Origin: Beverwykella pulmonaria
Taxonomy: Eukaryota > Ascomycota > Dothideomycetes > Pleosporales > Melanommataceae
NCBI GenBank assembly: GCA_001599595.1
Contig: BCHH01000001.1
Span: 850,305 to 914,304, forward strand
DNA length: 64,000 nucleotides
Direction: 5' to 3'
Within the stretch, counting starts at the first letter, position 1; each line of letters starts with the position of its first letter. The position numbers and the translations under genes were made by a program. The notes beneath the pieces are model-generated. The model was not told where the DNA came from. It searched no databases and saw only the letters and a program-made list of their open reading frames with translations. This document shows, in pieces, positions 19,906 to 59,774 of this stretch.

Positions 19906-21873
19906 CTACACCTCATTACTCGGATACAGCACTTTCTCCGTCGGAATAAACTCCTCCTTGATAGCCCTCACATTGACAAACCTCGAGAGCAGATTCGCAC
20001 TTCCGGCTTTATCGTTGGTGCCACTCGCCCTCGACCCGCCAAAAGGTTGTTGCCCAACGACAGCGCCCGTGCACTTACAGTTTATATAAAAGTTACCTGC
20101 AGCGTTGCGCAGTGCCTCTTCGGCAAAACGGACCACTTCTCTGTCCTTTGCGAAGACGGCTCCTGTCAAGGCGTACTCGGAGGTCTCGTCAATCTGCTTG
20201 CAGATCTTCTGGAAAGCTTCTGCCGGCGCGCTCGTATCGTCGTAGACGTACACCACGAGGATTGGGCCAAACAGTTCGTGAGAGAGAAGGGGATGGTTAG
20301 GGTTGGTGGTTTGGTAGATGGTGGGGTGGATGTAGTAACCTTGGCTGCTGTCGTACTTGCCGCCGAAGAGCAGTTCCAGTTCACTGTCGTTCTTAGCCTC
20401 GTCGATGACACCGGATAATTTCTTGAAGCTAGCTTCGTGGATCACCGGCCCGATGAAGTTGGAGAAGTCTGAGGGGTCACCGATCTTGAGAGCTTCCGTT
20501 TCGGCAACGAGTCGCTCTTTGAACTGCGGCCAGACAGATTTAGGGACGTATGCTCGTGAGCACGCGCTGCACTTCTGGCCTTGGTATTCGAAGGCGCCGC
20601 GCACTGTCTGTATGGCCGCGTTGGAGATGTCGGCTCCGCTGTGGACTAAGTGGAAGTTCTTGCCTCCAGTCTCGCCGACAATGCGAGGGTAGCTCTGGTA
20701 CTTTCCGTTCGCAACGCCATCTGCAATCTTCCCATACAGTGACCGGAACACAGCAGTGCTCCCGGTGTAATGGAGCGCTGCAAACTGCCGGTGGGACAGC
20801 ACTACCTTGGTAACCTCCTCTGCGTCACCGGGGATAAACTGGATGACATTCGGGGGAAGACCGGCTTCGATAAGGATCTGGTAGATGAGCCAGTTCGAGG
20901 CAATGGCTGATGGGGATGGCTTCCACACCACGACATTGCCCATGAGAGCCGGGGCCGCAGGGAGGTTTCCACCGATAGCTGTGAAGTTGAACGGCGTGAC
21001 GGCGTACACGAAGCCTTCTAGGGGGCGGTACTCAACTCGGCTGCGCAGAATTAGAATCACACTCAGAGGTCAATGGCAAGGTAAGGACGTACTTCCACAC
21101 TCCCGGTGAGTTGTGCGACGGCTGGGTTCCATATGTAGCCTCGGCGTACTTGACGTTGAACCTGCCCTGAATTAGCACATGCACCATTCACCACAATCTA
21201 GAGCTATTACATGCCTTAGGAAATCACACAACTCTGCCGCAGCGTCGATTTCAGCCTGCCACACATTCTTGCCCTGTCCTACCATGGTTGTCGCCATTAT
21301 CTCGTATCGGTACTTGGTGGAGATCAGATCAGCCGCCTTCAGAAAGACGGCCGCACGGTCAGCGAAGGGCAACGTTTCCCATGCCAGCTTGGCGGCCAGC
21401 GCAGAGTCTATGGCCTTGTTGACTTCTGCTGTGCTAGCGTTGGAGTACTTCGCTATCACATCGGCGTGGGAGGAGGGGTCGTGTTGTGTGAGAATGGACG
21501 AGCCCTTGATCTATTCAAAGTTAGATGGATGGCCTCAGAGCCTACAGAAATGAGGGGCCTCACATAGTGCCCTGCTACTGCGAGTGGAACGTCGAGGGGA
21601 GCTTGCTTCTTGAGTGCTGCAATGGCATCTTGGAGCTTCTGTCTCTCCATAGATCCTTTGGCATAATGTTGCTGTATCTCCATGTTAGCTTGACAATGAT
21701 AAATGACCTGTTCTAAACTTTACATTGGGCTCATTGTTGGTCGTGGGGACCTTGAAGTTCGCGATGGTTGCAATGGTTCGCTTTGAAGCTATGTGCGAGC
21801 TGGCAAAGGGTGTGGACAAGGATCTTGAGATTTTGCACAAGGGCTGGAAACGCGTTGACCAACCCATTGGCAT
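19906..21873 (-). CDS. PUT2: Delta-1-pyrroline-5-carboxylate dehydrogenase (ALDH4 family), mitochondrial
   Basis: Five exons (21873-21724, 21671-21564, 21510-21211, 21166-21093, 21040-19906) close to 588 residues. The N-terminus (LCKISRSLSTPFASSHIASKR) is basic, Ser-rich and free of acidic residues, as expected for a mitochondrial presequence. The ALDH domain follows: NNEPNQHYAKGS across the first splice, EYRPLEGFVYAVTPFNFTAI, VVWKPSPSAIASN, GETGGKNFHLV with the general-base Glu, and EYQGQKCSACSRAYVP with the catalytic Cys. The ending FVNVRAIKEEFIP is typical of P5CDH. The enzyme oxidises P5C/glutamate semialdehyde to glutamate with NAD+, the second step of proline catabolism. The exact intron 3 boundary (44 nt) is less certain than the others. 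Proline oxidase is not in the window. Confidence 0.92.
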
Positions 21874-49641: not shown

Positions 49642-51407
49642 TTATTGACCACGTCCACGGCCTCGTCCTACAGGTGCGTGGTTGGGGTTAAACCCTCCAC
49701 GAAACCCTCGACCGCCACCACGACCGCGTCCTCGCCCTTGCCCTCGACCTCTGTATCCGCCTCGTTGTCCACGACCGCCCCCGCCTCTATCGGCCCATTC
49801 CGACTCTCGCCGTGGACCCTGTTGCATCCTCTGCATTCGTTCTTCGTCTGACGCGTGGAAAGCATTCGGTATCTGTATCAAGTCACAGAAAGTTTGCGTA
49901 TGCGGGTTGGTGTACTCTTGCGGTGAACCATCGACACGAATGCCCAACGCAGGATCGTATACGTGCGCAGTTTGCTCAAAATCGTCCGGGATCACCATTC
50001 TCCCCGCCTTGACAAGATTTGCTTCCACCCATTCCATCTCTTGCTCAATCCGTGGTCGGTAGAAAGTATCGCCCTTATCCTCGGGTACTTGAGCATCAGG
50101 GTCCCCGACTTGTAAGTCCTTGGCAAAGACACGGGTGATTGCAAGCCATTCCGTGTCGTACTCTAGCCTCAGCGGTCGTTCGAAATCAGCCGGAGAATGT
50201 GGAGTGATTTGCAGAAGCTGCAGAAAGTGTCTGTTCGGTAAGCATTTGTCCAGTGCTAGAAACTTGGTGGTTTTATTCGTTATTTCCGAGGGAAATGGTA
50301 ATGTTTCTGTCATGTCGGTTGCCGGACGTGCAAACGACTCAGGCAATAGGTCTCGAATATTTTGTGGTACTTGTTCGGATGCACTGGTCACCCCATTCTG
50401 TTTCTCGCGGTCCATCGTTGTTTTCTTTTGCTCCGGCAATGCAGGCTGTGATGCAACATCATCATCCATATCAAGGTCGAGGTCAATTTCCTCTTCGTTC
50501 TTCGCTACTAGCGTGGGCTGAACACCATCCATATCGATCTCAACCTCATCAGCGTTCTTTAGGGTTGTAGAAACATCATTCGGGGCTGCAGGATTCGAGC
50601 TTTGTACATCTTGGTGTTCCCATACTGCAGCATATTTGACATGCATGTGTGCACTAAACCAGTGTGCAGGTCGAAGCCTCTCTAAGACCTTCGCAGCGGC
50701 CACGCTTCCGAGCGTGCCGTCTTTCGCCTCCTGTTCGAAATGCGACTTGACCCGGAAAAGTTGTTGATGGTTTCCTTTCCACACCACGCTGCGCGGCCAG
50801 TCATGGCTGATCCCGATGTCAACTTGGGAGCGAATTTGTAGAAGCTTGCGAGTGTCAAGCTCTCTAACATGATAGATGCTTCTTACATCACTGTCATTGT
50901 ATGGAAGACGTTCGTAGTGCGGCTTCTTGTAGTTGTAGCCCTTCCAAATGCCAGAGAGACCAGCGATGCGGAGCGGGCCAAGTCGAATAACATTTGCAGC
51001 CCCCATATAGTAGATGTTGGGTGCAGCCCAACCTCCATAGTATAGTTCCCACATATAATTGCTCGCCTCGTGGTTGCCCCCGACAAACACTGTTAGATAA
51101 GGAGCAGTCCGGGTCCCGGAGTAGTACTCATGAAAATCATGCATGGCATAGTACTTTGCTGGCATGGAGACGGCTTTGAGGTCAAGCGCGTTGCGGACGG
51201 CCTACCCAGTCAGGTATATGTCCCTAGAAGAAAGACTTGAGATCTCACCTGGAAGTCTCCGCCAATAATCAGTAGATCTACGCCTTCCCAGCCCTTGAGC
51301 TCACAGGACTTATTGATGGATGCATAGATATCATGCAATGTGCCATGGCCACAACCTTCTACGGCTATGCGCAGGCCTTCTTTTATGAGTAATGCTGGCG
51401 ACGCCAT
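49642..51407 (-). CDS. DBR1: RNA lariat debranching enzyme
   Basis: Two exons (51407-51249, 51201-49642) close to 572 residues. The metallophosphoesterase core is complete: RIAVEGCGHGTLHDIY (first metal motif), IIGGDFQ across the splice, GGNHEASNYMWELYYGGW, GISHDWPRSV and SAHMHVKYAA. These are the Dbr1 signatures, including the Cys in the first motif that separates Dbr1 from other phosphoesterases. A variable acidic linker (residues ~280-350) separates it from the C-terminal Dbr1 domain (FLALDKCLPNRHFLQLLQI). The last ~50 residues are a Gly-Arg repeat tail (RGG/GRG). The enzyme hydrolyses the 2'-5' bond of excised intron lariats. It is divergent from the RNase P/MRP subunit gene, with 288 bp between starts. 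Confidence 0.95.
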
Positions 51408-58942: not shown

Positions 58943-58951
58943 AAAAAAAAA
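58943..58951 (-). terminator. RNA polymerase III terminator of the tRNA-Leu gene
   Basis: Nine consecutive T on the minus strand, beginning 7 nt after the discriminator base of the tRNA. Confidence 0.8.
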
Positions 58952-58957
58952 TAATGC

Positions 58958-59104
58958 TGATGAGGGTGGGATTCGAACTTCATGGGTGTTAGTAAGGTTC
59001 AGTGACATAGAAACGGTGTACTTGCCCCACGCGGTTTCCCACTGCGGGGATTCAAGCTATAGAGCAGCCTAAACACAGCGCCTTAACCACTCGGCCACCT
59101 CACC
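58958..59104 (-). tRNA. tRNA-Leu(UAG) with an anticodon intron and a second insertion in the T-arm
   Basis: Read on the minus strand from 59104: acceptor GGTGAGG (pairs with CCTCATC at the 3' end, one G-U), A-box/D-arm TGGCCGAGTGGTTAAGGC, anticodon stem CTGTG with loop TTTAGG (anticodon TAG). A 20-nt intron (59067-59048) sits after position 37 and contains CTA able to pair with the anticodon. The 3' stem CGCAG, a long variable arm TGGGAAACCGC (type II, as for Leu) and T-stem GTGGG follow. Then 48 nt (59025-58978) interrupt the gene between T-stem and T-loop, followed by TTCGAAT, CCCAC, CCTCATC and discriminator A. Without both insertions the cloverleaf is complete (79 nt, T-stem perfect). B-box sequence AGTTCGAATCC is retained, and a T9 terminator follows. 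This supports an expressed gene, but maturation is unproven. Confidence 0.8.
58978..59025 (-). other. 48-nt intron-like insertion in the tRNA T-arm
   Basis: On the minus strand it starts GCAAGT, contains TACTAAC 13 nt before its end, and finishes with AAG. This is the anatomy and length of a GC-AG spliceosomal intron of this genome. Its removal restores a perfect five-pair T-stem and a seven-base T-loop. Confidence 0.7.
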
Positions 59105-59774
59105 GATATGTTTTTTGGACAATTTGGACGATGTTTCGGTTTAATTTATATATATTGTATTCATTAATCACTACAGCGAAGTAATGGATGATGATGGGGG
59201 ATTTCTGGCAGTTAGCAGGTCACACAACCATGGGATGGGCCTTGGCATACTATGGGGACTTTCCCAAAATGGTAAGGCATCGGCCAAACTTCATTCCGAT
59301 GGTCAGACTTCCGCTCCCATGAGCTTACAGAAAGAGGGCGTAAGGCAGTAAGGCCCCGGAAACAGGCTTAGAGTATATCTAGGTCCTTATTTTCAAGATC
59401 TTCACCTACAAAGTCATAACCCATTCCCTCTGAGTAAGTCAGTGTACTGCGTTTTCAACATGATCTTAACATGTTTCTAGGCCATCGAGCTCTTAAAGTC
59501 TTCAAAGACAAGCACTGTTTTCTAGCCAGGCTCTCCAATTTGAACGTGAGCAGCTGGAACTACAAAAGGAGAGATTCCAATTTGAAAAAAGAAAAATACG
59601 CATTTGAGAAAGAGAAGAGAAGGCAAATATAGAACATGTTTTAGATTAGCTTGCTAAGAATATAGCTACGATCCTGATTAGTGCGTCAAGAATTTCCCCC
59701 GCGTATATAAGCTAGGCTGCCCGTATCTCGTTCTAAACACGTTTCTTCCGCAATCTTGTCACAACTTATTTGCC
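59105..59774. other. Relic coding fragments upstream of orphan gene
   Basis: 670 bp. 59480-59640 encodes, in frame with one interruption, a coiled-coil of the type QALQFEREQLELQKERFQFEK, resembling the C-terminal tails of fungal transposon-associated or Myb-like proteins. It is preceded by an intron-like GTAAGT...TCTAG (59433-59481). Stops and frame changes show that it is a remnant. 59700-59774 is AT-rich and may be the promoter of the next gene. Confidence 0.4.

Follow-up and report, generated by a model that had tools for sequence, protein, structure and literature searches.

The window analysed here, a stretch of 64,000 nucleotides from contig BCHH01000001.1 of Beverwykella pulmonaria, carries on its minus strand a tRNA-Leu(UAG) gene with two insertions, one in the anticodon loop and one in the T-arm. 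The gene and its flanking elements are as follows.

58958..59104, minus strand: whole tRNA-Leu(UAG) gene; length 147 nt with both introns, 99 nt once the 48-bp intron is removed and 79 nt after removal of both
59026..59104, minus strand: exon 1, from the acceptor 5' strand to the T-stem 5' strand, with the anticodon-loop intron inside
59047..59066, minus strand: ordinary anticodon-loop intron, 20 nt (ARAGORN register; a 1-nt shift is possible)
58978..59025, minus strand: GC-AG spliceosomal-type intron, 48 nt, at tRNA position 53/54
58988..58994, minus strand: TACTAAC heptamer, putative branch site, presumed branch A at 58989
58958..58977, minus strand: exon 2, with T-loop, T-stem 3' strand, acceptor 3' strand and discriminator A
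59087..59097, minus strand: A-box TGGCCGAGTGG (sequence reading)
58969..58979, minus strand: B-box rebuilt over the 3' splice site from intron AG and exon 2 TTCGAATCC (sequence reading)
58943..58951, minus strand: Pol III terminator, T9
59145..59154, minus strand: TATATATAAA element upstream of the gene, at about -50 to -41

What we take to be the A-box and the B-box of this gene (58958-59104) were assigned against consensus sequences. The B-box has A for G at position 52, a base contributed by the intron.

ARAGORN found no tRNA in the unaltered window. Alignment of the minus strand of 58958-59104 to the Rfam tRNA family gave 25.8 bits against a cut-off of 29, with two unaligned stretches, one of 23 nt within the anticodon loop and one of 55 nt separating the two strands of the T-stem. 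When 59025-58978 was removed from the window, ARAGORN reported tRNA-Leu(TAG) with a 20-nt intron. The initial annotation had placed a 48-bp insertion precisely at the border between T-stem and T-loop, in addition to a 20-nt anticodon-loop intron, and had claimed that its removal gives a perfect T-stem. The ARAGORN call shows a tRNA after the removal and bears out the 20-nt intron, and the Rfam gap inside the T-arm agrees with the position at 59025-58978. The insertion is laid out as GCAAGT...TACTAAC...GAAG. Its start and the heptamer were described correctly; the branch distance, given earlier as 13 nt before AAG, is 11 nt from the branch A to the 3' end. The A-box, the B-box and the T9 terminator (58951-58943) are retained, as originally read.

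As a control for chance, each stretch of 40-79 nt in the window that fits G[TC][AG]NG...AG was removed singly, with no branch site demanded. The 5394 candidates (2601 on the plus strand, 2793 on the minus strand) yielded one junction-spanning tRNA, the Leu(UAG) gene at 58958-59104. A stricter set of 246 window candidates, 44-75 nt long and with a branch site, again gave only Leu(UAG).

Four mRNA introns in three genes of the window, a small comparison set defined by protein alignment, measure 47, 52, 53 and 56 nt. All four have GT...AG ends and YTRAY at 8-12 nt. The likeness in length between the tRNA insertion and neighbouring mRNA introns was thus upheld (48 nt vs 47-56 nt). From the P5C dehydrogenase alignment, two clean introns of four gaps were used; the two further gaps, at 21165-21663 on the minus strand, have unclear splice sites, and one is perhaps another GC-AG intron. 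A gene for DBR1, the lariat debranching enzyme, lies at 49642-51407 on the minus strand and has a 47-nt mRNA intron at 51202-51248. Its position about 7.5 kb from the tRNA gene is probably a coincidence. The window homeobox protein is 75% identical to that of Pleomassaria siparia, and the P5C dehydrogenase and DBR1 are 96% and 82% identical to those of Melanomma pulvis-pyrius, each the closest among the named matches; both species belong to the Pleosporales.

Interrupted tRNA genes in the genome

The genome (45.6 Mb, 31 contigs) was searched for tRNA genes by a tRNA family scan, by a B-box plus terminator pattern, by an A-box pattern and by Rfam on fetched loci, followed by reading of the candidates. 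The family scan scored 63 of 1174 first-look candidates, so that tRNA gene totals are lower bounds. At least 48 nuclear tRNA genes were located, and at least 17 of them carry at least 21 spliceosomal-type introns outside the anticodon loop. The insertions lie in the acceptor stem, the D-arm, the variable region and the T-arm, and two genes have three each. Intron sites, assigned by eye in standard tRNA numbering, are listed below by gene and contig position.

Leu(UAG), window 58958-59104: 53/54
Ser(GCU), C2:1142273-1142402: variable arm
His(GUG), C2:1771969-1772111: 53/54
Lys(CUU), near C12:408500: 53/54
Leu(CAG), near C2:256350: 10/11
Leu(AAG), first gene, near C10:295900: 6/7
Leu(AAG), second gene, near C7:2320700: 6/7
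Arg(UCU), near C4:852400: three introns, at 3/4, in the D-stem and in the variable region
Thr(UGU), near C10:425300: three introns, in the D-loop, just 5' of the anticodon stem and at 53/54
His(GUG), other gene, near C14:886950: 52/53
Glu(CUC), near C16:666700: 11/12
Gln(CUG), near C19:228800: 53/54
Trp(CCA), C1:357704-357839: 53/54
Cys(GCA), near C10:494100: 58/59
Ala(AGC), first gene, near C1:2554500: 58/59
Ala(AGC), second gene, near C14:149300: 58/59
Val(AAC), near C3:1019500: 52/53

The commonest site is 53/54 (6/21 introns). The 17 genes were reached through the tRNA family (10 genes) or the B-box pattern, neither of which demands a 5' splice site or a branch site. The B-box pattern does demand AG or GG before TTC, and the 3' end is therefore partly prescribed for the 53/54 introns of the Lys, Thr and Gln genes, which were found by the pattern only.

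Several candidates were set aside. Loci L063, L064, L067-L071, L109, L111, L120-L123, L125-L130 and L132-L136 are chance matches in which no tRNA was seen on reading; 14 of them had no tRNA match at E up to 5, and L122, L123, L128-L130 and L132-L136 were rejected by eye alone. L071 (G000:C27:46400-47100) has a reading frame resembling a Ty3-type reverse transcriptase, judged by eye. Two tRNA-like sequences on large contigs, L112 (G000:C17:711640-711830) and L131 (G000:C11:307420-307640), are organelle-type or degenerate and were left out of the counts. L066/L105 was considered as Leu(UAA); ARAGORN gives Leu(AAG). A DNA search with nine fungal tRNA queries had no matches and carries no weight. 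The genome searches, which give lower bounds and included patterns aimed at some of these genes, did not find genes for Phe, Tyr, Pro, elongator Met, Gly(GCC), Leu(UAA), Ile(UAU), Arg(ACG), Ser(UGA) or Val(UAC). These may be more heavily interrupted, or may simply have been missed. In 40 fetched loci and the window, Rfam found no 5S, U6, SRP or RNase P RNA at gathering score.

Removal of the introns gave a tRNA in ARAGORN for 17/17 genes, including the triple-intron Arg(UCU) and Thr(UGU). The anticodons of the spliced forms agree with manual reading in 16/17; Val(AAC) was parsed as Thr(AGT). From the unspliced forms ARAGORN reported nothing in 15/17 cases, a false Leu(TAA) for the Ser gene, and Leu(CAG) with its intron taken as the 5' half. 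A scan of the fetched loci with removal of 1106 candidate introns produced as extra output an edge artefact at L018, and labelled Arg(UCU) as Pro(TGG) when one of its introns was removed.

Some of the interrupted genes could be compared with intron-free copies. Spliced Lys(CUU) equals an intron-free gene (L019) in every letter, including the 29-nt anticodon intron, and both spliced Ala(AGC) genes equal the intron-free L008 in every letter. Spliced Ser(GCU) differs from an intron-free copy by 1 base. These pairs fix the inserted length without any splice-site rule. Five interrupted genes (Lys, both Ala, Ser and Gln(CUG)) have an intron-free counterpart with the same anticodon, and loss of function is possible for those five.

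Splice signals, exon conservation and promoters

All tRNA insertions (21/21) have GT/GC...AG ends, GC-AG in the window gene. The register of each intron was picked by the analyst among those that the flanks permit; with all flank-permitted registers allowed and equal base frequencies, the chance of such ends in all of the first 20 introns is about 10^-37. A YTRAY branch site with its A 9-13 nt before the 3' end is present in 18/21 introns; the Leu(CAG) intron and two of the three in Thr(UGU) lack YTRAY in this region. The introns measure 47-58 nt, a single one of 72 nt excepted, and the median of the first 20 is 52.

Ordinary anticodon-loop introns of the same genome served as an internal control. 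They are very common, with 29 in 47 ARAGORN tRNA calls, for example in Asp, Glu, Gln, Asn, Cys and His genes, and often occur together with spliceosomal-type introns in one gene. They are 7-34 nt long. GY...AG ends were found in 0/29 and CTRAY in 0/29, with TTRAY left out of the count; for at least three of them (L022, L029 and L102) the ARAGORN parse departs from manual reading, which makes their ends doubtful.

Exons and introns were compared in genes that share an intron site. The two Ala(AGC) genes, both interrupted at 58/59, have identical exons (72/72), and their introns are 61% identical, where shuffled sequences average 51% and reach 62%. The two Leu(AAG) genes, interrupted at 6/7, have exons 99% identical and introns 60% identical (shuffled 55%, maximum 63%). 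In these pairs the exons have been held, and the same-site introns differ almost like random sequence with their signals kept. Old shared introns that have drifted and two gains at one site would both fit. The two His genes are not copies of one another (exons 68%; introns 49%, as in shuffled sequence). Among 20 tRNA introns the best local score was 26 in 190 pairs, against 27 in 950 shuffled pairs, with equal medians. The tRNA introns are no repeat family. Near-identical copies, as expected of introners, were absent both for the window locus across the genome and for the 20 tRNA introns against each other.

Copy number was checked for two isoacceptors, Leu(UAG) and Trp. In the genome a spliced Leu(UAG) query had the window locus as its sole match, split into two segments, and the sole match of a spliced Trp query was C1:357704; the search detects close copies, and the Leu(UAG) query missed the other Leu genes. 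The CUN leucine genes found are UAG, CAG and AAG twice, and all four are interrupted. Both His genes found are interrupted as well. Trp has a single codon, and its tRNA is indispensable.

In 8/21 introns, those at 53/54 and 52/53, the 3' splice-site AG abuts TTCRANNC or GTTCRANNC, and the B-box is thereby rebuilt in the DNA. The 58/59 introns of Cys and both Ala genes interrupt the B-box at its 3' end, which argues against full promoter strength in those three. TATAWA occurs upstream of 9/11 intron-bearing genes for which 60 nt or more were available (the count omits five with less than 60 nt, and Val), in comparison with 15/28 other genes and 2.5% of random positions in the window. A run of T4 or longer within 30 nt downstream is present in 14/16 intron-bearing genes (Val omitted; the two without it had just 13 nt fetched), 26/28 others and 8.7% of random positions; its frequency is partly a matter of choice because the B-box pattern itself demanded T5.

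Proposed spliceosomal removal and its alternatives

Removal of nuclear tRNA introns is usually ascribed to the tRNA splicing endonuclease, and the spliceosome is regarded as acting on Pol II transcripts, except for U6 and rDNA. The initial annotation offered three readings of the 48-bp element: spliceosomal processing, cleavage by the tRNA endonuclease, and silencing of the copy by an inserted element. The mRNA-type signals in introns of at least 17 tRNA genes across the genome lend good support to the first. Judged from these sequence features, the 48-bp element would be a genuine U2-type GC-AG intron of the spliceosomal class, located in a nuclear tRNA gene that Pol III transcribes, and would belong to a set of at least 21 in at least 17 genes; we put the probability of this at about 0.9.

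Could the interrupted genes instead be dead copies, in which intron-like elements inserted into redundant tRNA genes that are now pseudogenes? According to PMC4090602, a eukaryotic tRNA gene with an odd insertion is usually just one among many synonymous copies and is regarded as a pseudogene, and the intron-free genes of the same anticodon for Lys, Ala, Ser and Gln(CUG) fit such a history. For genes with no intact counterpart, the intact spliced forms, exon conservation, copy number and promoters all argue against it. ARAGORN accepts all spliced forms, terminators and upstream TATA elements are retained, and in the Ala and Leu(AAG) gene pairs the exons are identical or nearly so despite widely different introns. 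The silenced-copy reading is also weakened at the window gene itself, as no close second Leu(UAG) was found, nor a close second Trp, and the other three CUN Leu genes found are interrupted too, like both His genes. As an explanation of the whole set, death of the copies is improbable.

Cleavage of ectopic introns by the tRNA splicing endonuclease at a bulge-helix-bulge, as in archaea and Cyanidioschyzon merolae, appears less probable still. It is favoured by position: the C. merolae tRNA-Ile(UAU) introns at 12/13, 37/38 and 53/54 (from the accessible part of PMC9602550) include the site that is commonest here. The motif itself was missing, as the 4/4 central helix was found in 0/20 introns (0.4 expected by chance; Val intron left out) and a relaxed helix also in 0/20 (1.5 expected; Val intron again left out). 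Nor does this mechanism predict the GT/GC...AG ends and branch sites of the insertions, signals counted in 0/29 anticodon-loop introns. Introners are known from Dothideomycetes, and a mobile repeat family of that kind, or an assembly artefact, would be a further source of insertions. A 261-bp query with the window intron matched only itself in the genome, where the initial annotation had considered a repeat, and the intron pairs score no better than shuffled ones. An artefact across 17 genes on many contigs, complete with splice signals, is not credible, and the two possibilities together have a negligible chance of being right.

If the introns are spliceosomal, Pol III would transcribe the whole gene from the A-box and the B-box rebuilt at the 3' splice site (AG + TTCGANNC) to the T-run terminator. 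The nuclear spliceosome would then recognise the 5' site, the branch site and the AG and excise the intron, and the T-arm and tRNA body would fold only after excision. The spliceosomal step probably precedes the action of RNase P, of tRNase Z and of the tRNA endonuclease that takes out the anticodon-loop intron; for the endonuclease this order is suggested by its published ruler recognition. The same order is assumed for C. merolae, where D- and T-introns are thought to be removed before the anticodon intron (PMC9602550, in part). The introns were probably gained singly, as proposed for U6, by reverse splicing or another route.

Relation to known introns and possible consequences for translation

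The U6 snRNA gene of Schizosaccharomyces pombe is interrupted by a spliced mRNA-type intron (Tani and Ohshima 1989, 1991, as related in the available portion of PMC10484740). The initial annotation was right to cite U6 as a parallel from a Pol III gene, and the same portion reports that the position of the intron close to the U6 catalytic bases led to the proposal of reverse splicing. The tRNA genes here resemble S. pombe U6 in that a Pol III-made non-coding RNA has an mRNA-type intron, whose splicing in the tRNAs is probable from sequence. U6 is itself a part of the spliceosome. Here, in contrast, the introns interrupt many tRNA genes, and two of these combine an anticodon-loop intron with three spliceosomal-type ones. 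Spliceosomal introns are also known from the rDNA of lichen fungi, and in budding yeast they were spliced out of Pol I transcripts (PMC8527467); PMC11889510 discusses rDNA introns of Pleosporales together with older records of spliceosomal introns in rDNA. The ascomycete rDNA introns described there, one of 57 bp, are likewise of spliceosomal type in a structural RNA (parts of PMC8527467 and PMC11889510), but they reside in Pol I rRNA repeats and not in Pol III tRNA genes with internal promoters.

Outside nucleomorphs and C. merolae, introns of eukaryotic tRNA genes at sites other than 37/38 are described as rare, and genes with such insertions are presumed to be pseudogenes (PMC4090602). The ectopic introns of C. 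merolae, nucleomorphs and archaea are similar to those found here in that there are several per gene, in D-, anticodon and T-arms, and 53/54 is a site in both; they differ in having bulge-helix-bulge motifs and being attributed to the splicing endonuclease, and those of the Guillardia nucleomorph are 3-24 nt. GT-AG ends and branch sites are unmentioned for them in the available portions of PMC9602550 and PMC4090602, from which this comparison is drawn. Canonical nuclear tRNA introns (37/38, tRNA splicing endonuclease) are present in many of the same genes and differ in length and in the 0/29 count of GY...AG ends or CTRAY. In a literature search, with subscription papers and preprints outside its coverage, none of the listed titles and abstract openings described tRNA genes with spliceosomal introns.

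It is likely from the gene set that a large part of the tRNAs, probably including those from sole genes for essential isoacceptors, can be made only via the spliceosome. The dependent set would comprise Trp, perhaps Cys, both His genes and the whole CUN leucine set; splicing would be obligatory if the CUN Leu, His and Trp genes found are the only ones. Some pre-tRNAs would need three spliceosomal cuts and an endonuclease cut. tRNA gene finders can miss many genes in genomes of this type. Access of the spliceosome to Pol III RNA, intron gain in structural RNA and the order of two splicing machines on one molecule become testable. If the spliceosomal reading is true, translation capacity would be coupled directly to mRNA splicing capacity.
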